The notes beneath the pieces were generated by a model. The model made no database searches. It was not told where the DNA came from and saw nothing but the letters and a program-made list of their open reading frames with translations. A program made the translations under genes and the position numbers. A stretch of DNA of 11,473 nucleotides, taken from Aquificota bacterium (GTDB lineage Bacteria > Aquificota > Aquificia > Aquificales > Aquificaceae). Below, one piece after another: positions 1 through 11,473 of this stretch (position 1 is the stretch's first letter; each line of letters begins with the position of its first letter). The stretch spans positions 1 to 11,473 of the forward strand of contig JAADEK010000083.1 of NCBI GenBank assembly GCA_013153455.1, given 5' to 3'.

Positions 1-790
1 CTAAAGATAGGTAAAGCTCAAGCTCGTGGTAGTTGAGAATCTCCTCAAAGAAGCGGAGTCTGTCAAGTTCCCTCGCTCGGAAAAAGTAAAGGAGAGCCCT
101 TCTCGGTTTTTTGGCTTTCTTCAGCGCGAGGGCGGTATACACGTTGTAGTAAACGTCGTATTTAAGCAACGGGTTTTTCTCGCGCGCGATTGAAAGCTCC
201 CTCAGCGCTTCTTCGGGTTTCCCCATTGAGACGAGGTATACGCCGAGGGCGAGCCTGCGCAGGTATTCAAGCTCTCCCCCCTCCCCGAGCGATAGAAGTA
301 GCTCGTAGCCCTCCGCCCTCCCCAAAAGCGCGGAGCTAAAGCCGAGCTTTACCGCGTATCTTCGCTTCTTTTCTTCCTCCCAAAGGGCGCTGTATACGCT
401 CCTTGCGTCCTCGTATAAGCCAACGAGCAGGTAAACGTCCCCCACAAACTCCCTCTGAAGGCTCAAAAACCTCGGCGGTTTGTAGTGAAAGGGATACTCG
501 TTCAGGTATCCGAGAGCGGAGAATATACCCGCCTTTTGCCCGAGCCTATACGAATAAAGGGCGTATGTGATGCCGTAGTAGAGGTATGATAGCTCGCCGA
601 CCTCGGAGCGGGGGGAAAGCGCGCGCGCACGGGAAAAGTATACGAGCGCGTCCTCGTAGTCGCTTACCTCAAGCGCCCTCAGACCCTTTTCGTAGTATAC
701 GCGCGCGGGACCCTCTTTCTCCTTTTCAGAGGAAAATACTAAGAGAGCTACCAGGCTCAGGAGAGCTATCGCCCTTATGATGAAACTCAT
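1..790 (-). CDS. Exported TPR-like repeat protein, partial (C-terminus beyond left edge)
   Basis: 263 codons are open from an ATG at 788-790 to the left edge, with no stop, so the C-terminus is missing. Residues 1-21 look like a signal peptide or N-terminal anchor: one Arg at position 6, then a hydrophobic stretch (about 7-19) ending FSS. The rest is helical and rich in Tyr, Leu, Ala and Arg, with TPR-like repeats. The clearest are about residues 29-62 (helix pair ending ALVYFSRARALSP), about 190-210 (GKPEEALRELSIAREKNP) and a third near the edge (RRALLYFFRARELD). TPR proteins are protein-binding scaffolds; the partner here is unknown. An in-frame TAG directly precedes the ATG, so this is the furthest upstream start. 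It overlaps the upstream fliK-like gene by 65 bases, which implies translational coupling. A purine-rich stretch about 15-25 bases upstream could help ribosome binding. The export/TPR call is solid; the biological role is not known. Confidence 0.75.
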   Translation of the reverse strand, partial: MSFIIRAIALLSLVALLVFSSEKEKEGPARVYYEKGLRALEVSDYEDALVYFSRARALSPRSEVGELSYLYYGITYALYSYRLGQKAGIFSALGYLNEYPFHYKPPRFLSLQREFVGDVYLLVGLYEDARSVYSALWEEEKKRRYAVKLGFSSALLGRAEGYELLLSLGEGGELEYLRRLALGVYLVSMGKPEEALRELSIAREKNPLLKYDVYYNVYTALALKKAKKPRRALLYFFRARELDRLRFFEEILNYHELELYLSL

Positions 791-1628
791 CTACTCTTAT
801 ATTATTCCTTCCCCTTTGTTTTTCCTTAGCGTAGAGCTCCTGCCCGTTTACGCTAAGGCTCTCCAACCGAATACCGAGCCCGCGGAAAATCTCCGATATC
901 CTGAAAGCGTCGTATTGGGTTATGAGCTCCGCTCTCGGAACCTCAAGCTTCAGGCGCGCGCTCTCACCCACGAGCCTTATCTCTATCCCGAGCTCCTTCA
1001 GCCTTACCTTAACACCCTTCAGGTTCTCGCGCTCAAATACGCGAACCTCCCTTATCTCCGGGGCGGGAGCGCTCTTTTGAACCTCCCGCCTTTCTTCCCC
1101 CCTTATCTCAAGAATCACGGGGGGTGGCTTTTGCTCTTGCTCTCGCTTCTCTTTTCGTTCGGGTTTTATTTCCGGGAGGGGCTCAGGGGCGGGCTTTTGG
1201 GGTCTTTGGCTTTCGCCCGCTCTTTGCACCTCTCTTTGCTCACCCGTGAGGGTCTTTAATTCTTTTTCAGATATAAATTTCTCCCGAACCCCTTCGGGGT
1301 TGTTTTTAGGAATTTCTTCGGGAGGTCTCAAGAAAAGCTCGGGCTTTTTGTCGGGTATTGGGCGCTCCGGGAGTTCCTTTTTGTGTGTTTTGTTTACCTC
1401 GGGGGTAAAGAGAGGGAGGATTTGTCCCGCGCTTTGGGGCGGTGGGTTAAGTATCTTTGTCTGGGGTAGCTTAGTCTCTTTCGGTTTTTCTTCGGGGTTT
1501 TTCTCGTTTTTTTGTCCCGAGAGGAGGGAAAGGAGGAGTTCAAGGAACTCGCTTCCCTTTTTCGTTTGGGGGTTTTGGAAGGGGTTTTGTGAGAGAGGGG
1601 AGATGAAGATGAGTTTCCATACCTGCAT
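726..1628 (-). CDS. fliK: Flagellar hook-length control protein FliK-like
   Basis: 300 aa with three visible parts. An N-terminal segment has a short amphipathic helix (FLELLLSLLSG, about residues 28-38). A long low-complexity middle (about 40-205) is dominated by Pro, Lys and Glu and looks disordered. A compact C-terminal domain (about 205-268) alternates strands and a helix (VKVRLKELGIEIRLVGES, then LKLEVPRAELI, then GLGIRLESLSVNG). This is the architecture of FliK, whose disordered middle measures hook length while the C-terminal Flg_hook domain contacts FlhB in the export gate. Length is at the short end for the family. The last ~30 residues, after KEKQRGRNN, lie mostly over the signal-peptide code of the next gene and are not expected in the domain; either the frame simply extends, or a small frameshift exists near the A-run around 810. 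It follows the unknown 164-aa gene by 19 bases. The identification rests on architecture and the C-terminal pattern, not on long identity. Confidence 0.6.
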   Translation of the reverse strand: MQVWKLIFISPLSQNPFQNPQTKKGSEFLELLLSLLSGQKNEKNPEEKPKETKLPQTKILNPPPQSAGQILPLFTPEVNKTHKKELPERPIPDKKPELFLRPPEEIPKNNPEGVREKFISEKELKTLTGEQREVQRAGESQRPQKPAPEPLPEIKPERKEKREQEQKPPPVILEIRGEERREVQKSAPAPEIREVRVFERENLKGVKVRLKELGIEIRLVGESARLKLEVPRAELITQYDAFRISEIFRGLGIRLESLSVNGQELYAKEKQRGRNNIRVDEFHHKGDSSPEPGSSLSIFL

Positions 1629-1647
1629 ACACGCCCCCGCTTTTAAT

Positions 1648-2142
1648 TTACTTCCCGCAGGGGAGAAAGTCTATACGCGTAAAGCCGAGGCGGTGGGCGT
1701 ATCGGAGCTGTGTTGAGTCAAGGAGTCTCTTTTTGTCGCTCTCTTGTCTTACACGGACGACTATCGTGTCCTTTTCTTTTCCCCTCAGCTCCACAGCGCA
1801 GAGGGGTATGCGGTTCCTGCTCGCGTCCATCTTCACAAATACGGGAAATATGGTTCTTTTGACGAGGAGGTATTCCTCGTATACCTTTCTGGACATGCCG
1901 TAGAGCTTGTGGTCCGGCTCACTTTTGTCTTTCCTCATCGCGTATTTTGTGTATATGACGTGTATCGGATACCCGAGGGCGTTTAGCTTGTCCACGAGGT
2001 AGGGCTTCACACCCTCTTTTTGTAGCCTTCTCTCAATCTCAACGAGCTGTGAGTAAATCTTAACTAACTTTTTCCTGTCGTTTTCGTAGGGGGGCGGAAG
2101 GACGAACCCGAGGCTCACGAGAAGGGAACTCAGTAACTCCAT
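1648..2142 (-). CDS. Protein of unknown function, first gene of the fliK-like/TPR unit
   Basis: I do not recognise this 164-aa protein. It begins with a hydrophobic stretch without positive charges (MELLSSLLVSLGFVLPPPY), which may be a weak signal or simply a buried helix. A charged helix follows (about residues 22-45, KKLVKIYSQLVEIERRLQKEG), then a mixed alpha/beta body containing IHVIYTKYAMR, a YEEYLLVKRTIFPVFVKMD segment and a strand-rich region DTIVVRVRQES. It ends GFTRIDFLPCGK. Two cysteines (ALCAVEL-like region and the C-terminal PCGK) form no motif. The ATG at 2140-2142 is preceded on its strand by an AT-rich stretch with no ribosome-binding site, so translation from a very short leader is possible. 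It sits 19 bases ahead of the fliK-like gene on the same strand, which makes a flagellar or cell-envelope role conceivable, but nothing in the sequence proves it. Confidence 0.7.
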   Translation of the reverse strand: MELLSSLLVSLGFVLPPPYENDRKKLVKIYSQLVEIERRLQKEGVKPYLVDKLNALGYPIHVIYTKYAMRKDKSEPDHKLYGMSRKVYEEYLLVKRTIFPVFVKMDASRNRIPLCAVELRGKEKDTIVVRVRQESDKKRLLDSTQLRYAHRLGFTRIDFLPCGK

Positions 2143-2181
2143 ATTAGATAAATATAAAGGTTATAATGCTCGTGTTGGGGC
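2143..2181. promoter_or_regulatory. Divergent promoter region between the fliK-like unit and mreD-mrdA
   Basis: Only 39 bases separate the two divergent starts. On the plus strand there is a perfect TATAAT at 2162-2167, preceded by GGT, with no good -35 hexamer at the usual distance. Transcription would begin about 2174, leaving a leader of only about 8 bases before the mreD ATG. On the minus strand the AT-rich block 2146-2158 contains a TATATT-like -10 close to the ATG at 2142. Both transcripts may therefore have very short leaders. Confidence 0.4.
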
Positions 2182-2649
2182 ATGGTTCTGCTCTTTTGCG
2201 CGGGTGCGGTTTTGGTCGCTCTCCTTCAGGCTTCCCTCTTTAGCCCCCTCTTCGGTAGCTTGTTCTTGACCCCTTCCCTTTCTTTCATATTCGTTCTCGT
2301 CTCCTCTTACTTTATAAAGGAAAAGGCTATCGTTTCCGCTTTCTTGAGCGGTCTTTTCCTTGATACGATAACCGACACACTCGGGGTTTTGACGCTTCTC
2401 AACGTCGTCTTTACATACCTCTTTTTGTTTTTAACGGGTGTTGTTCTCGTGAGGAATAAGTTCCTTGAGTTCTTCGTCCTCATCCCTTTCATCTCTTGGG
2501 TTAGGAAGCTTATCCTTATCCTTCTGGTGAGGGGTAGGTTTATGCTTGAGTTTTCCCTTGAGCTTTTCCTACTTTCCGCCCTTGTTGAACTTGTGTTTAT
2601 CTTTATTCTTTATAAGAGTTTATCGGGAAGGATAGATGAAAAGACGTAA
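2182..2649 (+). CDS. mreD: Rod shape-determining protein MreD-like membrane protein
   Basis: 155 aa, almost entirely hydrophobic, with about five predicted membrane segments: roughly residues 2-22, 28-47, 52-90 (two segments around a short charged link), 95-115 and 122-147. MreD is an inner-membrane member of the elongasome, which guides peptidoglycan synthesis along the cell cylinder. The pattern near residues 45-70 (KEKAIVSAFLSGLFLDTITDTLGVLTLLN) resembles the MreD core, in which a Gly-x-x-x-Asp turn follows the second helix. Length matches the family (about 160 aa). The direct neighbour mrdA, overlapping by 14 bases, strongly supports the call, since mreD and the PBP2 gene are commonly adjacent. 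mreB and mreC are not in this window. The start at 2182 is the only in-frame ATG after a stop at 2164; its ribosome-binding site (GGGG one base upstream) is poor. MreD sequences diverge widely, so the name rests on topology plus context. Confidence 0.75.
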   Translation: MVLLFCAGAVLVALLQASLFSPLFGSLFLTPSLSFIFVLVSSYFIKEKAIVSAFLSGLFLDTITDTLGVLTLLNVVFTYLFLFLTGVVLVRNKFLEFFVLIPFISWVRKLILILLVRGRFMLEFSLELFLLSALVELVFIFILYKSLSGRIDEKT

Positions 2650-4432
2650 TTTTATAATCTTTCTTCTTTCCGCGCTGGGGAGCTTTATAGGGGTGGGGGC
2701 TAACCTCTTTAGGCTTCAGGTTCTTGAGGGGGAGCGCTACAGGGAGCTTTCGGAGAGGAATTACGTCCGCAGGCGATACCTCTATCCCCCGAGGGGTGAT
2801 ATATACGACAGGAACGGGGAGAAGCTCGCTTACGACGTTCCGCGCTACGTTATGGTCCTTGATGTGAACAGGCTCAGGAAGGACGAACTACAAAAGACCC
2901 TGAAAGCCCTTTCGGAGCTTTTCGGTATAAATCCCGACAAGGAGAAGTTAATAAGGAAGGGTTTTGAGCTGGCGGTTCTGAAGACAGACCTCAGTCCTAA
3001 GGACATAGAAACCTTTTACAAAAACAGGCACCGCCTGAGGGGGGTCTTTATAGAGGTTATGCCAAAGCGCGTATACCCCCTCGGTGCGCTTTGCGCCCAC
3101 GTTCTCGGATACGTGGGGTATCCGGACCGCAGGGACATGGAGAGATTTCGGAAGATGAAAAAGAGCATAGGCTCAAACAGTTTCGTGGGGAAGATGGGTA
3201 TAGAGCGCTCCCTTGACCACATACTCACCGGTGAGCTCGGGGAGGAGAGGGTGATGGTAAACGCCTTGGGGCGTATCGTGAGGGTTCTTGAGAGGAAGGA
3301 GCCAAAAAAGGGAAAATCGGTTAAGTTGACGATAGACGTGAGGTTTCAGAGAATCGTTGAGGAGGTGTTTGAGGAAAGCGGAAACCCCGCGGGGGCTGTA
3401 ATACTCCTAAAGGCGTCAACGGGTGAGGTTCTCGCGCTTGCGAGCTTTCCCGACTTTAACCCTAACACCGTATACGAGGAGTGGAAGAAGTTAACGAGCA
3501 ATCCTTTAAAGCCCTTCTTCAACAGGGCGGTCAGGGGTCTGTATCCTCCCGCTTCGGTCTTTAAGGTTCCCGTAGCCTACGCTACGCTCGTGACAAAGAC
3601 AAAGGGACCTTGGGACGTCGTTTACTGCCCGGGGAAGTTTGAGCTGGGAGACAGAACATTTTACTGCTGGCGAAGGTGGGGTCACGGGAAGGTAAACCTC
3701 ATAAAGAGCCTGAGCGAGTCGTGTGATGTTTACTACTACACGGTAGGATACGAGCTCGGACCCACGAAGATAGCCTACTTTGCCCGAAAATTTTCATACG
3801 GTGAGGACATACCCTTTGAGCTCCCGGTGAGAAAGGGCTTCTTACCATCACCGAGTTGGAAAAGAAGGAGGTTTAAGGAGCCTTGGTATGACGGGGATAC
3901 GGTGAACATGAGCATAGGTCAGGGGTTTGTCCTGAGCAACCTCATGGAGCAGACGCTCATGATGATGGGGATAGCTAACAACGGCGTCATATACAAACCC
4001 ACGCTCCTGAAAGAGATAATTGACGAGAAGGGAAACGTCGTTTGGAGGAACAAAAGGCAAGTATTTAAAGCCCTATACGGGAACCTTGAGTATTTTGCGC
4101 TCATAAAGAGGGGGCTGAGGGATGCGGTTCGTAAGGGAACCGCGAGAAGGGCTATGTCAAAGATAGTGGACATAGCGGGAAAGACGGGAACCGCGGAGGT
4201 CTTTTTTAAGAACAAAAGAAAGATAAAAAGGTGGTATAAAAAGAGGAGAAAAAAACTCCCTTGGAAGTATCGTAATCACGCTTGGTTTGTTGGCTTTGCT
4301 CCCTACAGAGACCCGAAATTCGTGATAGGTGTGTTCGTGGAGCACGGAGAGAGCGGGGGCAAGGTAGCGGCACCCATAGCCCGCAAGATACTTGAAAGGA
4401 TATACATACAAAAGCTTCACAAGGAAATCTAA
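2636..4432 (+). CDS. mrdA: Peptidoglycan D,D-transpeptidase, penicillin-binding protein 2
   Basis: 598-aa class B penicillin-binding protein that cross-links peptidoglycan during cell elongation. After a basic N-terminus there is one membrane anchor (about residues 5-25). The non-catalytic dimerisation domain starts with the RGDIYDRNGEKLAYD signature. The transpeptidase domain carries all three catalytic motifs: SVFK at 307-310 (nucleophile Ser307), SCD at 362-364 and KTG at 516-518. The FYCWRRWGHG stretch before SCD and NHAWFVGFAPY after KTG are typical of PBP2 and relatives. The start overlaps the end of mreD by 14 bases, so the two are translationally coupled; rodA, a frequent partner, is not next to it. 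An oddity is a very basic stretch just after KTG (residues 525-540, 12 of 16 are Lys or Arg), on the outer face of the membrane. The stop overlaps the stop of convergent dprA by four bases. Confidence 0.95.
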   Translation: MKRRNFIIFLLSALGSFIGVGANLFRLQVLEGERYRELSERNYVRRRYLYPPRGDIYDRNGEKLAYDVPRYVMVLDVNRLRKDELQKTLKALSELFGINPDKEKLIRKGFELAVLKTDLSPKDIETFYKNRHRLRGVFIEVMPKRVYPLGALCAHVLGYVGYPDRRDMERFRKMKKSIGSNSFVGKMGIERSLDHILTGELGEERVMVNALGRIVRVLERKEPKKGKSVKLTIDVRFQRIVEEVFEESGNPAGAVILLKASTGEVLALASFPDFNPNTVYEEWKKLTSNPLKPFFNRAVRGLYPPASVFKVPVAYATLVTKTKGPWDVVYCPGKFELGDRTFYCWRRWGHGKVNLIKSLSESCDVYYYTVGYELGPTKIAYFARKFSYGEDIPFELPVRKGFLPSPSWKRRRFKEPWYDGDTVNMSIGQGFVLSNLMEQTLMMMGIANNGVIYKPTLLKEIIDEKGNVVWRNKRQVFKALYGNLEYFALIKRGLRDAVRKGTARRAMSKIVDIAGKTGTAEVFFKNKRKIKRWYKKRRKKLPWKYRNHAWFVGFAPYRDPKFVIGVFVEHGESGGKVAAPIARKILERIYIQKLHKEI

Positions 4433-5388
4433 ACATTTTCAAGAACGTAATAACCCCCCTCCATCCTTATCTTTTTCTCTATCATGAGTCTCCCGAGGAG
4501 TTCAAAAGCCCTCCTCTCGTCCCCGATGTGCTCAACGACCTCATCAAAGCTCCTCGGTTTTGAGAAAAACCCGAGCTCGTCCGCGGGAGTCCAAGGCTTT
4601 GCTCCCATTGAGAGGAGTCTCCTGCACCCCTCCCAGCGCTCGGAGCTCTCATCACCCACCCAAACGAAGACCTCCCTCCCGAGCTCAAGGGCGTGCTTTG
4701 CGCTTATGAGGGCACCGCTCCTTTTCGGAGCTTCCACGACGTAAAGGCGCTCCGAAAGCCCCGCTATCGTCCTGTTTCTGACCACGAACGTGTAGCGCGC
4801 GGGAGGAGTCCAAGGCATAAACTCCGAAAGAACGCAAACCCTACCCCTCTCAAGGAGTTTCTCTATCCTTTTTTCCATCATCCCTATACCGCTACCGAGG
4901 ACAACGACCGTCTCAAGCCCGCTATCAACGGCTTCCAAGTGAGCCCTGTAGTCTATACCCTGGGCACCCCCGGAAATTACGCGCCTTCCTTCCCTCCTCA
5001 CAATCCTTCCGACGACGCTCAGGGAAGACCCGCAGGGCTTCCTCGTCCCCACAACACCCACACCGGAGTCCGGCTTTTGACCGACGTAAAACAAAACGGG
5101 GGGAGGGTCCGGGAGGGAAAAGAGGAGTCTCGGGTAGCTTTCCTCCTCAAGCGTAATCACACCCACGTCCGGATTTTGTGAGAGAAATTTAAGAAGCTTT
5201 TCCTCGTAGGGCGATTCGGAACTGAGGGACTTCATCACCTTTTGAGCTTTCTTACTTCCGACGAGGTGTGTTAGCTTTTCCGGTTCTATCTTCTCAACGG
5301 AGCGGAAAAAGGATACGATTTTCTTTATCGTCGCGGGACCCACGGAGTTTGTATTTGCTAACCTGAGGTATTTTACTAAACGCTTCAT
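4429..5388 (-). CDS. dprA: DNA-processing protein DprA
   Basis: 319 aa from the ATG at 5386-5388. DprA binds incoming single-stranded DNA during natural transformation and loads RecA. The N-terminus (about 1-60) is helical with a helix-hairpin-helix-like SVGPATIKKIV. The Rossmann-like core shows the family motifs: YPRLL (85-89), VVGTRK (112-117), SGGAQGID (139-146), VVLGSGIG (162-169), RNRTIAGLS (204-212) and SGALISA (224-230). A short C-terminal region (about 275-319) could be the small winged-helix domain of many DprA proteins. An oddity is that the usual VPG after the GREVF strand reads VWVGD and the following loop is charged. A TTG at 5392-5394 is in frame two codons upstream, but the ATG gives the usual MKRL-type start; neither has a good ribosome-binding site. 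It converges on mrdA and diverges from the por operon. Its presence suggests natural competence. Confidence 0.93.
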   Translation of the reverse strand: MKRLVKYLRLANTNSVGPATIKKIVSFFRSVEKIEPEKLTHLVGSKKAQKVMKSLSSESPYEEKLLKFLSQNPDVGVITLEEESYPRLLFSLPDPPPVLFYVGQKPDSGVGVVGTRKPCGSSLSVVGRIVRREGRRVISGGAQGIDYRAHLEAVDSGLETVVVLGSGIGMMEKRIEKLLERGRVCVLSEFMPWTPPARYTFVVRNRTIAGLSERLYVVEAPKRSGALISAKHALELGREVFVWVGDESSERWEGCRRLLSMGAKPWTPADELGFFSKPRSFDEVVEHIGDERRAFELLGRLMIEKKIRMEGGYYVLENV

Positions 5389-5416
5389 AATCAAAGATTT
5401 ATCATATAATTTCTAC

Positions 5417-5445
5417 TTGTAAAACCCTTCAACAACCTTTATATT
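5417..5445 (+). promoter_or_regulatory. Sigma-70-type promoter of the por operon
   Basis: TTGTAA (5417-5422) and TATATT (5440-5445) are separated by 17 bases, giving close matches to the -35 and -10 hexamers. Transcription would begin near 5452. The leader is about 29 bases and includes a strong purine-rich ribosome-binding site (GGAGGAAGAGG, 5469-5479) just before the porE ATG at 5481. The same AT-rich interval must also hold the dprA promoter on the other strand (candidate TTGAAG with an 18-base spacer to TATATG), so the two may compete. Confidence 0.6.
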
Positions 5446-5480
5446 TTAATTCACAAAAACTCTTTACGGAGGAAGAGGTA

Positions 5481-5720
5481 ATGTATTACGTTGCCCAGGT
5501 CATCCGCGACGAGTGCTCAAAATACAACTGCAAGCAATGCACACTCTTCTGTCCCGAACCCAACACACTCATGTATACGGACGAAGGACACCACGCGTTT
5601 GTGATAACGCAAAGGTGTAAAGGGTGCGCGCTTTGCGTTTACGTTTGCTCAGACCTTCTGAAACGTAATTCAATTGAGATGGTTTACGCGGAAAACAGGG
5701 ACGTTGCGGGAGTAAGATAA
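5481..5720 (+). CDS. porE: 2-oxoacid:ferredoxin oxidoreductase, ferredoxin-like epsilon subunit
   Basis: 79-aa protein with two four-cysteine motifs, so it should carry two [4Fe-4S] clusters and pass electrons between the enzyme and soluble ferredoxin. Motif one is C12-x4-C17-x2-C20-x3-C24-Pro, with a wider first gap than the classic Cx2Cx2CxxxCP. Motif two is C46-x2-C49-x2-C52-x3-C56, followed by Ser rather than the usual Pro. It is the first gene of the operon, 11 bases ahead of porD, with an excellent ribosome-binding site. The E-D-A-B-G order matches the pyruvate enzyme described in Hydrogenobacter thermophilus, whereas the 2-oxoglutarate enzyme there is encoded D-A-B-G-E. Electron transfer is certain in kind; the substrate of the complex (pyruvate rather than 2-oxoglutarate) is inferred from gene order only. 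Confidence 0.85.
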   Translation: MYYVAQVIRDECSKYNCKQCTLFCPEPNTLMYTDEGHHAFVITQRCKGCALCVYVCSDLLKRNSIEMVYAENRDVAGVR

Positions 5721-5731
5721 GGAGGTAAGCG

Positions 5732-6301
5732 ATGGCAAAGCTCGGACCCTCTGGATACTCACCTTACCCCGTCGCGGTGACGGAGGGCGTCCTTACACCG
5801 CCCCCCGGCAAGGCTTTGATGTTCAACGAGATAGTTGACGAAGAGACCGCGATGAGGGAAGCGGCAAAAGCCATGCTCACGCGCGAAAACCCCACCATAT
5901 TCCCCGGACCACAAGTCCTATACGCGTGGAACGAGGAAGCGAAAAAGAAGGCAAAGCTCATAAAGGAGATGGCGGAAGTCCTCGGCGCGAAGATAATCCC
6001 CATGTATGACTACAGACCCAAATACCCGAAGATAGACCCCGAAAAGGAAATAAACCCCAACCACCCCAACCTCACCATTTGGCACAACAAGATAAAGGCT
6101 TGCATCTTCATAGGTGTTCACTGCCACTACGCAAACGTAGCCCTAAAGATAATAAGGGCGGAGACGGATTGCTTCACCATAGCGATGTGTAGCTTGGCGG
6201 GACACGAGGATGCGATGATTACGCTCAGGGACCAGCACGCGGAAGACCTTGAGAAGTTCATAAGGATAGCAAAGGAAGTAAAGAAGGAACTCGGGAAGTG
6301 A
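5732..6301 (+). CDS. porD: 2-oxoacid:ferredoxin oxidoreductase delta subunit, CO-dehydrogenase epsilon (CdhB)-like
   Basis: 189-aa subunit unlike the ferredoxin-type delta of archaeal four-subunit enzymes: it has no CxxCxxC motif. It looks like the small epsilon/CdhB subunit of CO dehydrogenase/acetyl-CoA synthase, a Rossmann-like fold. Shared features are a helix rich in Ala and Lys followed by a PTIFPGPQ turn (about 40-62), a long helix then strand AKIIPMYDY (86-94), and the strand-turn-helix IFIGVHCHYANVAL (125-138) followed by a TIAM strand (149-152). Four cysteines (124, 131, 147, 153) and two histidines (130, 132) cluster in the second half and could form a metal or redox site; this is inference. 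A strong GGAGG ribosome-binding site lies 9 bases upstream of the ATG. The CdhB similarity is my recognition of pattern, not an alignment. Confidence 0.75.
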   Translation: MAKLGPSGYSPYPVAVTEGVLTPPPGKALMFNEIVDEETAMREAAKAMLTRENPTIFPGPQVLYAWNEEAKKKAKLIKEMAEVLGAKIIPMYDYRPKYPKIDPEKEINPNHPNLTIWHNKIKACIFIGVHCHYANVALKIIRAETDCFTIAMCSLAGHEDAMITLRDQHAEDLEKFIRIAKEVKKELGK

Positions 6302-6367
6302 TACATCATTTTGATTTCAAGAAAAGGGGATTAAATTTAAAGGGAACTTTCCCAAGGAGGTGATGTA
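6302..6367 (+). promoter_or_regulatory. porD-porA spacer with possible internal promoter, hairpin and very strong ribosome-binding site
   Basis: At 66 bases this is by far the longest gap in the operon; the other junctions are 11 bases or overlaps. TTGATT (6311-6316) is followed after 15 bases by TAAATT (6332-6337), a weak candidate for an internal promoter. A small hairpin GGGA-ACTT-TCCC (6342-6353) sits directly before the ribosome-binding site AAGGAGGTGAT (6354-6364), which is complementary to the full standard 16S rRNA tail and lies just before the porA ATG at 6368. Together these could raise expression of the catalytic subunits relative to E and D. Of these, only the ribosome-binding site is certain. 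Confidence 0.4.
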
Positions 6368-7582
6368 ATGTCCCAGCAGGTCAAGACCGAGAAGGTCAGA
6401 TACAATAGAATGGGGCAAAAAATCGTATCCCCCGACTACCTCCTCTTTGAAGCCCCCAGAACGAAGCACTTCATCACCGGCTCCGAAGCGGTAAAGGAAG
6501 CGGCAAAGCGCGCGAGCGTTGACGCCTCCATCTCATACCCAATCACACCCCAGTCGGAAGCTGCGCACATGCTCGGTGAACTCTGGAGGGAAGGATACAT
6601 AGGCGTCTACTTCCGCGGTGAGTCGGAGTTCGGCGTTATGTCCGAGATAGCGGGCTGTGCGATGGCGGGGGCGAGGACGATAACCACAACCTCCGGACCC
6701 GGAACCCTCAGGGCTATGGAACTCTTCCCCATGTGGGCTGGGTCAAGGCTCCCGATACAGCTCGTCCTCATGGCTCGCGGTATAAACTCCCCGCTATCAA
6801 TACAACCCGACAACCTTGAGATGTATTTCCTCCTTGACACGGGATGTATGGTATGGCACGCGGAAACCGCTCAGGAGCTCTTTGACATGATAATCGCGGG
6901 ATTCGTAGTCGCGGAACAGCCCGACGTCCACGTTCCCGTCATAACCGCGATAGACGGCTTTTTCATCTCACACACGAGGGAGGCGGTATACCTCCCGCCC
7001 GACGACATAGCACTCCCCCCCTACGACCCCTACAAGGCACCCATGCCACCGATAGACATGGAGATGCCACCCGGAAGGTTCATGAGAGACCCGTTTGTGA
7101 TGAAGTCAAACTACATCTCATACGCGACTCACGCAAGCTGGCAGTTTGAGGTTCGCGCAGCGATAGAGAGGGCAAAGCCCTACGCAAAGCACTACCTTAG
7201 GGGACTCGTTGAGCACTTCGGAGACCCCGAGGGAGAGGTTCTCTTCATCGCGAGCGGAACCGCAGCGGCACAAGCAAAGGAAGCGACCCAGATACTCATA
7301 CACGAGGAAGGCGTAAAGGCGAGGGTTCTCCGCATAAAGACGATAAGACCCTTCCCCACGGAAGAGGTAAGGGAAGCGGTAAAAGGCGCGAAATACGTAT
7401 TCGTCCCCGAGTTTAACGTCATCGGATGGCTTGAGAGGGAGGTAAAGAGGGCTCTTTACGGACACACCGATATCCCCATATTCGGAACGCCGAGGGTGGG
7501 CGGTGGTATGACGATGCCACCCGAATACATCGTTCAAGAGGTTCTTAAGATTATCGGTAAGGAGGTGAAGCATGTCGGTTAA
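6368..7582 (+). CDS. porA: 2-oxoacid:ferredoxin oxidoreductase alpha subunit (pyruvate synthase type)
   Basis: 404 aa, the usual length for alpha of split 2-oxoacid:ferredoxin oxidoreductases. The N-terminal pyrimidine-binding domain has GSEAVKEAA (38-46), the signature YPITPQS (57-63), which contributes to substrate binding, and RGESEFG (83-89), with the Glu expected to activate thiamine diphosphate. SGPGT (109-113) and LMARGI (134-139) follow; Arg137 is a plausible contact for the substrate carboxylate. The second half is the transketolase C-terminal-like domain (about 270-400, with EVLFIASGTAAAQAKEA and a GGGMTMPPEYI tail). With beta it forms the thiamine-binding catalytic centre. In autotrophic Aquificales the enzyme runs toward carboxylation of acetyl-CoA. 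The stop overlaps porB by 11 bases. Codons are strongly C-ending (CCC, ACC, GAC), as expected for a highly expressed enzyme. Confidence 0.92.
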   Translation: MSQQVKTEKVRYNRMGQKIVSPDYLLFEAPRTKHFITGSEAVKEAAKRASVDASISYPITPQSEAAHMLGELWREGYIGVYFRGESEFGVMSEIAGCAMAGARTITTTSGPGTLRAMELFPMWAGSRLPIQLVLMARGINSPLSIQPDNLEMYFLLDTGCMVWHAETAQELFDMIIAGFVVAEQPDVHVPVITAIDGFFISHTREAVYLPPDDIALPPYDPYKAPMPPIDMEMPPGRFMRDPFVMKSNYISYATHASWQFEVRAAIERAKPYAKHYLRGLVEHFGDPEGEVLFIASGTAAAQAKEATQILIHEEGVKARVLRIKTIRPFPTEEVREAVKGAKYVFVPEFNVIGWLEREVKRALYGHTDIPIFGTPRVGGGMTMPPEYIVQEVLKIIGKEVKHVG

Positions 7583-8432
7583 GATTTTCAAGATTAACGA
7601 AGAGCTAAAGGAATACATGCCCCAAGAAATCGTTGACCTTGAAGAAAAAGCGACGTGGGGAAACCCCAAGCGCGGGGTGATGGACCTCCCCTACGCAAAG
7701 GAGCTCGTTGAGGAGCACTCCCTGTGCGCGGGCTGTCCCGAGTCCGCAGCTTTCAGATACATCCTCGCTTCCCTGCCGAACCCCGAGGACACGATAATCG
7801 TCAACTCAACGGGTTGCACATCTCTCGTCTTTCCGCACATAGCCCTCCACACGGTTCACCCCCTCTTCGGGAACCAAAACGCGGTCGCGTCCGGTATAAA
7901 GAGGGTTCTTGAGTGGAGGTTCCCCGACAAGGTCAAGGACGTCGTAGTAATAGCGGGTGACGGCGCAACGATAGACATCGGTCTTGACTGCACACTTCAG
8001 TCCTTCTTCCGCCAAGAAAAGATTACGACCATATGTTTTGATAACGAAGTCTACGCAAACACCGGAGGACAGGACAGCGGGGCAACACCCAAGGGAATGG
8101 AGTTCAAAATGGCTCCCGGCGGGAAGCAGTGGGACAAGGTTCCCATGTGGCAACTCGCGATAGACTCGGGCTGTCATTACGTCGCAAGACTTACAGTTTC
8201 CTCTCCCAAGAAGGTTGAGCAAGTCGTCAAGAAGGCTATATACGTAGCGAGAGAGGTAGGACCCACCTACATACACCTATACACCCCCTGCATACTTGAG
8301 ATAGGACTCAACGCGGACCAAGGTCTTTGGGAGATGAGACAGCGCGATAAGGAGCGCTTCAAGTTCTTTGAATACATGAGCGACGAAGCGAAGGAAGTGA
8401 TAAAGAAGAAGAAAGAGGAGGGACTGCTATGA
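7572..8432 (+). CDS. porB: 2-oxoacid:ferredoxin oxidoreductase beta subunit
   Basis: 286-aa subunit that binds thiamine diphosphate and one [4Fe-4S] cluster. The likely cluster ligands are Cys52 and Cys55 (LCAGCPE), Cys82 (STGC) and Cys240 (TPCI), the pattern of pyruvate-type beta subunits. The thiamine signature runs from GDG (129-131) through DNEVYANTGGQ (157-167), where Asp and Asn hold the magnesium and pyrophosphate, followed by SGATPKG. The N-terminal ~45 residues are longer than in minimal beta subunits. The ATG at 7572 lies inside the end of porA and has a good GGAGGTG ribosome-binding site within the porA coding sequence. The stop overlaps the porG start as ATGA, so A, B and G are translationally coupled and probably made in equal amounts. 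The motifs alone do not separate pyruvate from 2-oxoglutarate; the name follows operon order. Confidence 0.93.
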   Translation: MSVKIFKINEELKEYMPQEIVDLEEKATWGNPKRGVMDLPYAKELVEEHSLCAGCPESAAFRYILASLPNPEDTIIVNSTGCTSLVFPHIALHTVHPLFGNQNAVASGIKRVLEWRFPDKVKDVVVIAGDGATIDIGLDCTLQSFFRQEKITTICFDNEVYANTGGQDSGATPKGMEFKMAPGGKQWDKVPMWQLAIDSGCHYVARLTVSSPKKVEQVVKKAIYVAREVGPTYIHLYTPCILEIGLNADQGLWEMRQRDKERFKFFEYMSDEAKEVIKKKKEEGLL

Positions 8433-9145
8433 CGAGGAGAAGGATAAACGTCCGCATGCCCGCGATAGGCGGGCAGGGCGCGGTTTCCGCCGCGCACATA
8501 ATGGCTACCGCAGCGGACCACGCGGGCTACTACGCGGTGTCTAACCCCTTCTACGGCGCGGAAAAGAGGATGGCACCCTCCGAGAGCTACGTCCGCATAG
8601 GGATAGAGCCCATATACGACAGGGGTGAGGTCGTCTACCCGGACGTGATAATGGTCTTCCACGCTCAGGTCATAACGATGGGCAAATCCTACACGATGCC
8701 CTTCTATTCGGGCATAAAGAAAAACGGTCTAATCATCATAAACGCGGAGGAAGACCTCCTTACCGAAGAGGACAAGGCATACCTTGAGGAAAGAAACGTA
8801 AAGATATTCAACTTCAGCGCGACGAAGTTCGCAAAGGAATACGCGGGAACCGAGCTTGCGACGAACATGGCTATGCTCGGAGCGTTTTTCGGCATAACCC
8901 AAATAGTCGGTATGGACTCAATAGAGGAAGGGATAAAAGCCCGTTTCCTGAAAAAATTCGTAGCATCCGGGGGAACCGCGTCACTTGACTCCGCAATAGA
9001 GAGAAAGTTCAAAAAGAAGCTTGAGCTTATAGAGAAGAACATAGCCACCGCAAGGGCAGCTTACGAGTTTGCAAACCAGTGGGCAAAGGAACAAGGCATA
9101 GAACCCTGGCTACCCAAGCCGGAAACCGCCCTCCAACAGGCTTGA
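8429..9145 (+). CDS. porG: 2-oxoacid:ferredoxin oxidoreductase gamma subunit
   Basis: 238-aa gamma subunit, which forms the domain that binds or clamps coenzyme A in the assembled enzyme. The N-terminal IGGQGAVSAAHIMA (13-26) is the family glycine-rich signature, followed by NPFYGAEKRMAPSESYVRI, the usual link to the second strand, then YPDVIMVFHAQVI and NGLIIINAEEDL. Residues about 128-150 (FAKEYAGTELATNMAMLGAF) match the helix that packs on the other subunits. After the core there is a charged helical tail (about 190-238) ending in WLPKPETALQQA, longer than in many gamma subunits. The start is the ATGA overlap with porB. It is the last gene of the operon; tandem hairpins and a terminator follow within 55 bases. 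Confidence 0.9.
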   Translation: MTRRRINVRMPAIGGQGAVSAAHIMATAADHAGYYAVSNPFYGAEKRMAPSESYVRIGIEPIYDRGEVVYPDVIMVFHAQVITMGKSYTMPFYSGIKKNGLIIINAEEDLLTEEDKAYLEERNVKIFNFSATKFAKEYAGTELATNMAMLGAFFGITQIVGMDSIEEGIKARFLKKFVASGGTASLDSAIERKFKKKLELIEKNIATARAAYEFANQWAKEQGIEPWLPKPETALQQA

Positions 9146-9149
9146 AAGA

Positions 9150-9167
9150 TTCCTTTTCATAAAGGAA
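9150..9167 (+). terminator. Small AT-rich hairpin after porG
   Basis: TTCCTTT (9150-9156) and AAAGGAA (9161-9167) form a perfect 7-base-pair stem around TCAT, starting 5 bases after the porG stop and ending 5 bases before the main terminator stem. It may help termination or protect the 3' end of the por mRNA. Alone, with no T-run, it would not terminate. Confidence 0.4.
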
Positions 9168-9171
9168 AATT

Positions 9172-9202
9172 ACCCCGCCTTCGGCGGGGTCTTTTTATTT
9201 TT
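9172..9202 (+). terminator. Rho-independent terminator of the por operon, possibly bidirectional
   Basis: ACCCCGCC (9172-9179) and GGCGGGGT (9183-9190) form a perfect 8-base-pair stem with a three-base TTC loop, followed by CTTTTTATTTTT. It ends the por transcript. Read from the other strand, the same stem is followed by TAATTTTCCTTT, so it could also stop the minus-strand transcript that ends with the tRNA. Confidence 0.9.
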
Positions 9203-9214
9203 GAAAGAAATTAA

Positions 9215-9302
9215 TGGTGCCGGTGGCGGGAGTCGAACCCGCACGCCCGCGAGGGGCAGGGGATTTTGAATCCCCCGCGTCTGCCAGTTCCGCCACACCG
9301 GC
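9215..9302 (-). tRNA. tRNA-Leu, anticodon CAA
   Basis: Class II tRNA of 88 bases including an encoded CCA (9215-9217). The acceptor stem pairs GCCGGTG (5' end, 9296-9302) with CACCGGC (9219-9225), with A as discriminator. The D arm has GCG/CGC around GAACTGGCAGA. The anticodon stem GGGGA/TCCCC carries the loop TTCAAAA, so the anticodon is CAA (9266-9268 on the plus strand), reading TTG leucine codons. A long variable arm follows, as expected for leucine, and the T arm is GCGGG-TTCGACT-CCCGC. It lies 11 bases after flgJ on the same strand, close enough to be processed from the same transcript. Confidence 0.96.
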
Positions 9303-9313
9303 TCGGTGTGATA

Positions 9314-9565
9314 TTATAAGCCCTTCAGGATAAAGTTAGCAAGACCGATACCCCCCGAGAGGGCTATGTGCCTCGCGAGGGCTTGGGCAAACGTATCAAG
9401 GTATACCTCATACGTAAAGCTCTTTTCCTCGGAGGGTTTCAGAGCATTTCTCAGGAACTCCTTCAGGAAAATGGACTCTATCTCCTTCGCGAGCTCTTCG
9501 GGCTTTTTTGAGATAAGCTCGCGATAGGTAAGGGCTGGAGGCGGGGGCAGGAAGACCTCACTCAA
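9314..9565 (-). CDS. flgJ: Minimal FlgJ-type flagellar rod-binding protein
   Basis: 83 aa corresponding only to the N-terminal rod-binding domain of FlgJ. The pattern EIESIFLKEFLRNAL (about 28-42) followed by YEVYLDTFAQALARHIALSGGIGLANFILKGL (52-83) matches the family: an FE-x-x-F-x-x-x-x-L helix, then a helix with F-x-x-x-x-A-x-x-(I/L)A, then the diagnostic GGIGLA. FlgJ caps and scaffolds the growing flagellar rod in the periplasm. In enterobacteria it is fused to a muramidase domain, absent here, as in many non-proteobacterial FlgJ proteins. There is no signal peptide, so export through the flagellar apparatus is expected. The start overlaps the upstream 92-aa gene by 8 bases, indicating coupled translation. 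The nearest other flagellar gene in this window is the fliK-like gene more than 7 kb away. Confidence 0.8.
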   Translation of the reverse strand: MSEVFLPPPPALTYRELISKKPEELAKEIESIFLKEFLRNALKPSEEKSFTYEVYLDTFAQALARHIALSGGIGLANFILKGL

Positions 9566-9836
9566 TCTTTATCCTCCTTGACTTTTGGGTCTTTTGGGTT
9601 TCTTGTATGCGCTCCTCAAGGAGCTTTATCTCGTAGTCTATGAGCGTCCTGCATATCTTCAGAAGGGAGAGGGGTATCGTGTAGAGGTTCCTCATCACCT
9701 CCTGCCTTACCTCCGCGGGGGGTATGCAGAAGCGAAGGAGCGCAAACAGCTCCCCCTTCAGCTCTTCTATTTCTTTCTCAAGCGTGAGGGTCTCAAGCCT
9801 TTGGGTTTCCTTGCTTTCTTCTTTCTTGCGTTCCAT
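9558..9836 (-). CDS. Small coiled-coil protein of unknown function, coupled to flgJ
   Basis: I do not recognise this 92-aa protein. Residues 1-33 are very charged and predicted helical (RLETLTLEKEIEELKGELFALLRF, coiled-coil-like heptads). A break CIPPAEV at about 37-43 follows, then a second long helix (about 44-80, VMRNLYTIPLSLLKICRTLIDYEIKLLEERIQETQ), then a basic tail KSRRIKIE. Two antiparallel helices with charged ends resemble flagellar export chaperones in general shape, but there is no specific match. The 8-base overlap with flgJ suggests the two are made together, making a role with the rod protein the leading guess. The ATG at 9834-9836 has no ribosome-binding site and lies beside an AT-rich block, so a leaderless mRNA is possible. 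The gene diverges from reverse gyrase with only 38 bases between starts. Confidence 0.7.
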   Translation of the reverse strand: MERKKEESKETQRLETLTLEKEIEELKGELFALLRFCIPPAEVRQEVMRNLYTIPLSLLKICRTLIDYEIKLLEERIQETQKTQKSRRIKIE

Positions 9837-9840
9837 AAAA

Positions 9841-9866
9841 TATAATTTATGCTTCTTACAAAGAGG
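9841..9866 (+). promoter_or_regulatory. Promoter -10 and ribosome-binding site of reverse gyrase
   Basis: A perfect TATAAT at 9841-9846 lies 29 bases before the ATG, with no recognisable -35 hexamer. Transcription would begin near 9853. AAGAGG (9861-9866) is a good ribosome-binding site 8 bases ahead of the ATG at 9875. An in-frame GTG directly precedes this ATG, but the ATG has the better spacing. The minus-strand gene must use the same AT-rich core. Confidence 0.5.
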
Positions 9867-9874
9867 ATAAGGTG

Positions 9875-11473
9875 ATGATTAGAGCGTTGTTTGAGGGGTT
9901 GTGTCCCAACTGCGGGGGTGAGATTTCCTCCGAGAGGTTGCTCAAGGGTCTTCCCTGTCCCGAGTGCCTGCCCGAGGAGGTGAGCAGGGAAGAGGTTTGC
10001 GGGCATATCGGGGAGGGAAAGCTCGCGGAGTATTGCGACCTGAACCAAGAGCTCCGAAAGTGGGAAGACTTCTTTAAGGAAAAGCTCGGAACCTCCCCCT
10101 GGAGCCTTCAGCGCTCGTGGGCGAGGAAGGTGTTTCTCGGGAGGAGCTTTGCTCTCCTCGCACCGACGGGCGTAGGGAAGAGCACCTTCGGACTTATAAC
10201 CGCGTCCTATCTCGCAAAGAGGGGAGAAAGGTCTTACATAATCCTGCCCACACAACTTTTGGTTGAGCAGACGCAAAAGCGCCTTCGGGAGATGGGTCTC
10301 GGGGATGAGGAGCTTCTCGTCTGGGGAAAGCTGTCCGAGGGTAAGAAAAAGCGCTACAAGGAGCGCATAAAGGAGGGGGACTTTAAGGTTTTGGTCACGA
10401 CGTCCATGTTCCTTTACAAGAACTACGAATTACTCCCGAAGGACTTTCGGTTTGTATTCGTTGACGACGTTGACAGCTTCCTGAAGACCGCGAAGAACGT
10501 TGATAAGGTTCTTTTTCTCCTCGGGTTTTCGGAGCAAGACGTTCAGAAAGCCCTTGAGCTTATACGTCTTAAGGAAAAGCCAAAAAAGAGCGAGGAAGAC
10601 TGGGAGGAGATAAGGAAGAGGAGCGAAGAACTCAGACAAATATCCGAAAAGAGGAGGGGAGTCCTTGCGGTCTCCTCCGCTACGGGGAATCCCCGCTCAA
10701 ACAGGATAAAGCTCTTTCGTGAGCTTCTCGGTTTTGAGGTAGGAAAGCCCACGCTCTTGCTTCGGAACATACTTGACCTCTACGAGGAGACGGATAAGGC
10801 GGAGCGGAGGCTCGTTGAGCTCGTAAAGGAGCTCGGAAAGGGCGGACTCATATTCGTCTCTTCGGATTACGGTAAGAAGAAGGTTGACGAGATAAAGGAG
10901 CTCCTTGAGAGGGAAGGTATAAAGGCGCTCACGTATGAGGAGAAGCTTGACGCATTTGAGAGGGGAGAGGCGGACGTAGCCATAGGTATATCCTCCTTCA
11001 AGAACCCCCTCGCGAGGGGTGTTGACCTTCCCCACGTTGTGAGATACGCGGTCTTCTTCGGCGTTCCTAAGATAAAGATATCCTTGAACGTTGAGAGTTC
11101 CGTTTCGCACCTCCTTTGGGCTCTTTTGTCCCTCCGCCCGCTCATCACCAAGGACGAAGAGCTAAAAGCGCACGCAAGGCGCCTTGACAACTGGATACAA
11201 AAACTCCGTCGCTACTCGTTCCTGAGCGAGGAGTTCCTAAACACAAAACCCGAACTAAAACAAAAGATAGAAGAGCTTACGAACGAGATAAGGGAGTTTC
11301 TGAGGAGCGATAAACTCCTTTCAAAGGTAAAGGAGTCGGACGAGATTAGCCTCAGGGCGAGCGGGGAGGGATACGAGCTCGTCGTCGCGGACGTGACGGG
11401 ATACCTTCAGGCGAGCGGGAGAACCTCCCGTATGTTTGCGGGAGGACTTACGAGGGGGCTGAGCTACGTCCTC
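9875..11473 (+). CDS. rgy: Reverse gyrase, partial (N-terminal 533 codons)
   Basis: Reverse gyrase introduces positive supercoils into DNA using ATP and is found in essentially all hyperthermophiles. Visible here are an N-terminal zinc finger (C10-x2-C13 and C28-x2-C31), the helicase-like core with LQRSWARKVF (78-87), Walker A APTGVGKST (96-104), the reverse-gyrase form of Walker B VDDVD (196-200, DDVD rather than DEAD), and motif III SSAT near 292. The second RecA-like domain contains GLIFVSS, ARGVDLP and the ending GYLQASGRTSRM plus AGGLTRGLSYV, the strongly conserved stretch that leads toward the topoisomerase domain. The frame is open to the right edge; the topoisomerase IA half, with its catalytic Tyr, lies outside. 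Some Aquificales, such as Aquifex aeolicus, carry two reverse gyrases; which copy this is cannot be told here. Confidence 0.96.
   Translation, partial: MIRALFEGLCPNCGGEISSERLLKGLPCPECLPEEVSREEVCGHIGEGKLAEYCDLNQELRKWEDFFKEKLGTSPWSLQRSWARKVFLGRSFALLAPTGVGKSTFGLITASYLAKRGERSYIILPTQLLVEQTQKRLREMGLGDEELLVWGKLSEGKKKRYKERIKEGDFKVLVTTSMFLYKNYELLPKDFRFVFVDDVDSFLKTAKNVDKVLFLLGFSEQDVQKALELIRLKEKPKKSEEDWEEIRKRSEELRQISEKRRGVLAVSSATGNPRSNRIKLFRELLGFEVGKPTLLLRNILDLYEETDKAERRLVELVKELGKGGLIFVSSDYGKKKVDEIKELLEREGIKALTYEEKLDAFERGEADVAIGISSFKNPLARGVDLPHVVRYAVFFGVPKIKISLNVESSVSHLLWALLSLRPLITKDEELKAHARRLDNWIQKLRRYSFLSEEFLNTKPELKQKIEELTNEIREFLRSDKLLSKVKESDEISLRASGEGYELVVADVTGYLQASGRTSRMFAGGLTRGLSYVL

Follow-up and report, generated by a model that had tools for sequence, protein, structure and literature searches.

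Background

Restriction-site avoidance is a subject reportedly treated by Gelfand and Koonin in 1997, and it usually takes the form of a partial statistical bias. According to excerpts of the survey of thousands of genomes by Rusinov et al. (2015; PMC4687349), about half of the orthodox type II restriction-modification (R-M) systems show site avoidance, which rises with residence time and is also found as traces of lost systems; the threshold for avoidance in that survey is a ratio of ≤0.78. Here we describe a contig from a heat-loving, Aquifex-like member of the Aquificales (contig C109, positions 1..11473; this whole stretch of 11,473 nucleotides is called the window) which by exact count is without the four-base palindromes GATC, GTAC, CTAG and GGCC, and which belongs to a genome, designated G000, where these words together with TCGA and CCWGG have been nearly eradicated. 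Near eradication of six words makes the surviving copies readable one by one.

We consider it very probable that the pattern is near-complete restriction-site avoidance, that is, the outcome of selection against cleavage of the host's own DNA by type II R-M systems, both resident and lost. Whether now resident or ancestral, such systems would now and then cleave the host genome where methylation falls behind, and every copy of a target word would be a small liability to that host. Over long times selection would have stripped nearly all copies of TCGA, GATC, GTAC, CTAG, GGCC and CCWGG, the survivors including spots that may offer little or no cheap alternative, such as Trp-Pro codons for GGCC and the T loops and stems of tRNAs. 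The cost would lie in self-cleavage rather than in methylation itself.

Results and Discussion

The G000 assembly is a draft metagenome-assembled genome of 1,149,446 bases in 126 contigs, 82.9% complete and 0.86% contaminated. Words were counted in the window and in a wider sample of 43 of the 126 contigs (360,093 bases, 31%, window included), two of which were cut at 20,000 bases; contigs C25 and C116 were put into this sample for their methyltransferases. Expected counts derive from a second-order Markov model.

In the window the expected numbers of GATC, GTAC, CTAG and GGCC are 28.4, 37.6, 15.3 and 20.2, respectively, and the Poisson probabilities of finding none are 4.6e-13, 4.9e-17, 2.3e-7 and 1.6e-9. 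The four zero counts had been reported from inspection by eye (the sequence-only reading), and the exact count agrees; the accompanying figure of about 45 expected copies each holds for even composition, whereas the Markov expectation is 15.3–37.6. A fifth avoided word, TCGA, was overlooked at that time: it occurs once in the window against 41.9 expected, at + strand position 9233, in the T loop of a tRNA-Leu (CAA) encoded on the minus strand (9215..9302). As had also been noticed, the component triplets are abundant (GAT 142, ATC 101, GTA 136, TAC 156), as are other palindromes (AGCT 84, CGCG 87, GCGC 66, ACGT 49, CCGG 28, TTAA 28, CATG 24), with CCGG and ATAT at about half of expectation.

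The same depletion extends over the 43 contigs. Observed and expected counts are 1/828 for GATC, 15/1338 for TCGA, 18/1195 for GTAC, 8/473 for CTAG and 16/601 for GGCC, giving ratios of 0.001–0.03, and a sixth word, CCWGG, stands at 32/355 (0.09). Control palindromes are found in the expected numbers (GCGC 1913/1913, CGCG 2584/2405, AGCT 2470/2315), ACGT is at or near normal, and CCGG (0.52), ATAT (0.56) and CATG (0.73) are slightly depleted. The noncoding part of the sample (21,997 bases) has GATC 0/36.5, GTAC 1/53, CTAG 2/23.4, GGCC 7/39.1 and TCGA 7/61.8. The original observation is correct, indeed understated. We also record that the non-palindromic pair CGGC/GCCG is depleted in the sample (690 vs 1579 expected), and that GTNAC and GCNGC stand at 0.35 and 0.40.

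Codon choice and surviving copies

As a null for coding sequence, 333 ORFs (102,180 codons) were subjected to 20 synonymous-codon shuffles. Set against the shuffle means, the observed counts are GATC 1/653, GTAC 17/1358, CTAG 5/408, GGCC 8/707 and TCGA 6/1420, or ratios of 0.002–0.013, with GCGC (1623/1557) and AGCT (2117/1925) as controls; neither codon nor amino-acid usage accounts for the depletion. The choice of codon varies with the neighbouring codon. Isoleucine following a codon with a final G is written ATA 1564 times, ATT 488 times and ATC once (n=2053), while elsewhere ATC accounts for 1243 of 4381; the preference for ATA over ATC in this position, which the sequence-only reading had suggested, is plainly visible. 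Tyrosine is encoded by TAC in 16 of 468 cases after a final G and in 3062 of 3388 otherwise, alanine by GCC in 0 of 1310 and 1234 of 5406, respectively, and phenylalanine preceding GA by TTC in 1 of 468.

Trp-Pro is the sole dipeptide for which the genetic code forces GGCC, and all eight coding GGCC in the 333 ORFs are Trp-Pro codons (TGG-CCN). The dipeptide itself is scarce, with 8 occurrences vs 42.6 expected from composition and 44 for Pro-Trp. The observed to expected ratio is 0.19 in G000, 0.62 (33/52.9) in the 15 relatives whose GGCC ratio is at least 0.5, 0.49 (19/38.6) in ten relatives of intermediate GGCC, and 0.28 (9/31.8) in eight that avoid the word; for G000 against the GGCC-tolerant relatives Fisher's P is 0.002, uncorrected for kinship. 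At homologous positions Trp-Pro is mostly conserved (10 of 12, seven of these in one conserved protein), so the dipeptide depletion rests on totals and not on observed replacements. GGCC avoidance perhaps bears the sign of a cost at the dipeptide level.

In the G000 sample 58 copies of the five four-base words have survived. Eleven lie in tRNAs (5 GGCC and 6 TCGA), the eight GGCC are in Trp-Pro codons, five are in the TaqI genes of contig C25 described below and three in an AT-rich contig end (L036 6739-6991), the remaining 31 having no such special place. The other three of the 16 GGCC in the sample, included in the 58, lie outside both the 333 ORFs and the tRNAs. The earlier statement that RNA sequences obey the avoidance holds for the tRNA of the window and the four words then named, but not for the nine tRNA calls of the wider sample, to which the eleven copies just mentioned belong. 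The T loops of these nine calls read TTCGA in six, TTCAA in two and are unclear in one, a call that runs into a protein gene and is perhaps not a tRNA at all; there is not clearly a shift from TTCGA to TTCAA. The small-subunit rRNA, a possible refuge of conserved GATC and GTAC, was not found in the G000 assembly. The contig end at L036:6500-7005, with its three leftover words in some 250 bases, is possibly recently acquired DNA; CRISPR spacers were considered as a refuge for these copies, and no repeat array was found there.

Homologous sites in relatives

Among eight relatives compared, G005 has the highest aligned nucleotide identity (75.9%). In counting homologous sites gapped positions were set aside and overlapping alignments left in. 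In 19,731 aligned bases G000 retains 0 of 89 GTAC, 1 of 206 GGCC and 0 of 100 TCGA of G005. This is a single site kept out of 395, while of 937 sites of eleven control palindromes 324 are kept. Retention of the controls varies (ACGT 66/87, AGCT 68/117, CGCG 49/170, GCGC 36/146, CCGG 17/96, TTAA 15/124, AATT 1/12); since it falls as low as 1 in 12, weak retention alone is undiagnostic, and it is near-zero retention in large numbers that is diagnostic. GATC and CTAG, with 0 and 2 aligned copies in G005, fall outside this test. From five other members of the genus G000 retains GATC 0/34, GTAC 0/161, CTAG 0/36, GGCC 7/69 and TCGA 6/99.

The replacement of words by substitutions, both within genes and at aligned homologous positions, argues against an artefact of library preparation, assembly or binning, such as digestion of the DNA before sequencing. 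The source is a draft metagenome assembly of 126 contigs, which might invite that explanation, but relatives show similar patterns with other subsets of words, among them genomes that are a single contig (G031, for example), and we give an artefact practically no credence.

The kinds of substitution bear on whether the words could have vanished without selection, through faster mutation of methylated bases (e.g. methylcytosine deamination). Of 83 one-step TCGA losses from G005, 67 changed the central CG by C>T or G>A, and 22 of 30 one-step losses of GATC relative to the five other genus members are A>G at the second base, as mutational decay would have it; however, the unavoided word ACGT has an equal leaning to C>T/G>A, in 13 of its few (16) changes, and these narrow spectra do not decide the matter. 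GGCC was lost from G005 sites through all 12 possible single changes, many of them transversions, which is unlike the decay of one methylated base, and 15 of 69 GTAC losses are T>A or A>T. No match to the C5 cytosine methyltransferase profile PF00145 was found in G000, and the lower use of Trp-Pro in GGCC-avoiding genomes likewise speaks against decay. Mutation of methylated bases is unlikely to account for GGCC and GTAC, and as an explanation of the whole pattern it appears improbable.

Restriction-modification genes

Profile searches with PF01555 and PF02086 gave one G000 match each. PF02384 also gave one, a contig-end MmeI-like protein; at L038 5344-6753 we note an MmeI-like N6 methyltransferase broken off at the contig end. 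PF07669 gave one weak match on C120 (26.6 bits; cut-off 25.3), a match of a kind that 39 of 41 genomes have.

Contig C25 carries an RE_TaqI-family endonuclease (E 1.3e-62; 211.6 bits, cut-off 26.1; profile positions 1-227 of 229) whose gene overlaps that of a PF01555 (N6/N4) methyltransferase. TaqI (family RE_TaqI, PF09573) cuts TCGA, so that this word is matched by a resident R-M pair of the TaqI family, which is presumably active. Comparison of the TaqI-like enzyme with the sequences of solved structures gave chance-level matches only.

Contig C116 encodes a D12 class N6-adenine methyltransferase (PF02086, 124.2 bits; TIGR00571, 118 bits, cut-off 114.85). It adjoins a 368-residue protein matching the PADLOC type II endonuclease profile PDLC03572 (E 2.5e-71), which had no match to the DpnII family, no relative in plasmid records and none among solved structures by sequence comparison; the names of the best 120 matches in each protein-database list gave no specificity for the pair. 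Relatives of the pair occur in G028, where GATC stands at 0.00, and in G011, where GATC is not avoided; a further relative, in G027, adjoins a PF01555 methyltransferase instead. GATC is the likely target of this Dam-type pair, and the relatives in G011 leave it unproven. The two genes contain no copy of any of the five four-base words, for which 26 would be expected in all.

The sequence-only reading had proposed avoidance driven by several restriction specificities. Its support is a TaqI family enzyme for TCGA, low TCGA in the carriers of such enzymes, the many routes of base change, and other type II enzymes in relatives where the cognate word is low; its weaker side is that none of the four words then named has a proven cognate. 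GATC has the plausible Dam-type pair, and for GTAC, GGCC, CTAG and CCWGG no free methyltransferase was found through PF01555, PF02086 and PF00145 in the 83%-complete assembly, no search aimed at endonuclease families of these four specificities having been made there. These four words would have been purged by former or unassembled systems.

Words and enzymes in relatives

Forty-one genomes were profile-searched and stretches of 34 were word-counted, some of them only 4–5 kb long and some picked for their methyltransferase or TaqI matches. The subset of purged words differs between lineages. G005 avoids GATC, CTAG and CCWGG (0.01) and is normal for GTAC, GGCC and TCGA. The sister genome G004 is depleted, less deeply, in all five of the four-base words that G000 avoids (CTAG 0.09, the other four 0.14–0.22). 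G035 (L254-L257), a member of a different family within the order, shares with G000 the full set of six avoided words, CCWGG standing at 0.03. Elsewhere ACGT is nearly lost in L260 (G011, 0.04) and L270 (G025, 0.11), and GCGC in L276 (G031, 0.04), losses which point to further specificities in the order.

RE_TaqI is carried by three of the 41 genomes, G000, G021 and G035, whose TCGA ratios are 0.01, 0.10 and 0.03. In 20 of the 34 genomes sampled at least 15 copies are expected, and within these 20 the carriers are three of the five lowest in TCGA (exact rank P 0.0035, uncorrected for kinship). With the TaqI R-M genes excluded the counts are 11/1333, 1/61.7 and 2/63, respectively.

Of 165 ORFs beside the methyltransferases of relatives 134 were scanned, the other 31 being mostly repeats of loci already covered, apart from nine that were left out (eight at L236 and L237, one at L206). 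RE_MjaI, with CTAG as its target, adjoins methyltransferases in G004, G014 and G020 (CTAG 0.09, 0.10 and 0.00) as well as in the unsampled G036 and G040. HinP1I-type enzymes, which recognize GCGC, adjoin methyltransferases in G031 (GCGC 0.04) and G024 (0.26), and several other genomes have GCGC at 0.26–0.36. A ThaI-type enzyme, a type that recognizes CGCG, occurs in G018, where the CGCG expectation is too small to judge. Two members of the DpnII family are among the scanned ORFs, one of them traced to G040, which lies outside the word sample. These four types were seen only beside the methyltransferases that had been fetched, so that non-carriers are not established.

TaqI genes that keep TCGA

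For the R-M pairs, word expectations were obtained by shuffling within genes, and the numbers per pair are small. The G000 TaqI pair has TCGA 4/4.3, GATC 0/5.0, GTAC 1/5.6 and CTAG 0/3.2; that of G021 has TCGA 6/6.2, GATC 0/3.5 and CTAG 0/4.0; in G035 TCGA is 0/2.5, and three MjaI pairs have CTAG 0/4.0, 0/2.9 and 0/3.2. The TaqI-type genes with normal TCGA density which lack other avoided words lie at L138:13736-15362 and L252:8119-10255. They account for four of the six coding TCGA of the G000 sample (P 1e-8) and, in 40 kb of G021, for six of the seven TCGA (P 2e-7); the sites had been seen before either test was made. Either these two pairs are recent arrivals from purged genomes which replaced older systems, or some reason peculiar to their genes exempts them.

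Such genes bring up a variant of selection against self-cleavage, not exclusive of it, in which vanished systems did the purging and today's enzymes came late, into a genome already purged that they happen to fit. The normal TCGA density of the G000 and G021 pairs amid a purged remainder is in its favour, as is the fact that the purged words outnumber the systems found, and traces of lost systems are described in excerpts of PMC4687349. On the other hand, the G035 pair is free of TCGA, as expected of an old resident, and the C116 pair is without all five four-base words. We regard purging by lost systems alone as a real possibility, though somewhat short of an even chance. A bolder proposal, which we offer tentatively and hold rather doubtful, is that R-M toxicity in this hyperthermophile lineage presses several four-base words down nearly to the minimum that the genetic code allows, with almost every unforced copy gone and the protein sequence itself yielding at Trp-Pro, and that some TaqI-type genes are as if exempt, for instance for self-regulation by methylation or cleavage of their own genes, or bear the mark of serial replacement among purged genomes.

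Evidence against the proposed selection

A number of observations weigh against selection by resident and lost R-M systems. Six words are purged and few R-M matches were found in G000, and a simple long residence does not predict the normal TCGA content of the G000 and G021 TaqI genes. The relatives of the C116 pair in G011 coexist with GATC at 0.81. TCGA is also low in G010 and G026 (0.06 and 0.07), neither of which has RE_TaqI, and among the 14 genomes left out of the rank test for their small expectation it is low in the non-carriers G012, G016 and G025 (0.00) and G027 and G031 (0.09). Sixteen of the 17 coding survivors of GTAC read NNG-TAC, which the code does not force; they coincide with a strong preference for TAC.

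Finally, most of the 34 genomes sampled have little CTAG, so that alone this word is weak evidence. Together with the mildly low CCGG and ATAT of G000 this might suggest a general compositional or structural aversion to palindromes or to CTAG-like steps, independent of any enzyme. Such an aversion is not expected to leave AGCT, GCGC, CGCG and ACGT normal or nearly so, nor to purge a set that varies by lineage, G005 being normal for GGCC, TCGA and GTAC; its probability we put at close to nil.

Other features of the window

Ten ORFs of the window were scanned, and all those that could be named are ordinary genes which obey the avoidance. They include a penicillin-binding protein 2-type gene (2636..4432, + strand; PF00905, PF03717), a DprA-type gene (4429..5394, - strand; PF02481) and, by Pfam, a 2-oxoacid:ferredoxin oxidoreductase-type cluster (5481..9145, + strand) comprising ferredoxin-like, CO_dh-domain, POR alpha, TPP-binding beta and gamma genes, the ferredoxin-like gene being above the cut-off for Fer4_10 only. 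Five methyltransferase family profile searches gave no match on the window contig. Elsewhere in the sample a 20-mer occurs at a contig start in two copies 67 bases apart (L038:3-90).

Comparison with known systems

The mechanism that we favour is already known; it is the completeness across six words that looks unusual, and its rarity is our impression. No comparable case was noticed in the literature searched, most subscription journals being outside its reach. We suggest that the surviving copies provide a yardstick of strength, on which avoidance would exceed synonymous codon preference, would perhaps be felt at the level of dipeptides, and would yield to conserved Trp-Pro and to tRNA structure. 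Word counts alone may predict enzyme specificity, and since the sampled lineages of the Aquificales purge different subsets of words, the group offers a natural series in which the gain and loss of R-M systems could be dated.

As in the avoidance described in excerpts of PMC4687349, palindromic type II targets are under-represented genome-wide, also where the system has been lost. Unlike cases near its threshold of 0.78, five words of G000 stand at 0.001–0.03 and a sixth at 0.09, and every GGCC in the 333 ORFs is forced by the code. The C25 locus resembles the TaqI R-M system in its nearly full-length family match and its overlapping methyltransferase gene, but the neighbours of the TaqI-type enzymes differ, the methyltransferase belonging to PF01555 in G000 and G035 and to PF07669 with TaqI_C in G021. 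The C116 methyltransferase passes both PF02086 and TIGR00571, and its seven relatives of solved structure include Dam and the DpnII methylase; it departs from Dam and DpnM in that the best of its structure matches, 7m6b, is an adenine methyltransferase for which no target is given, and in having a partner that is not of the DpnII family. The genome of phage φX174, judging from excerpts of PMC5014478, is likewise wholly without GATC, but this is a small phage, and in those excerpts its lack of GATC is discussed in terms of mismatch repair and not of restriction.

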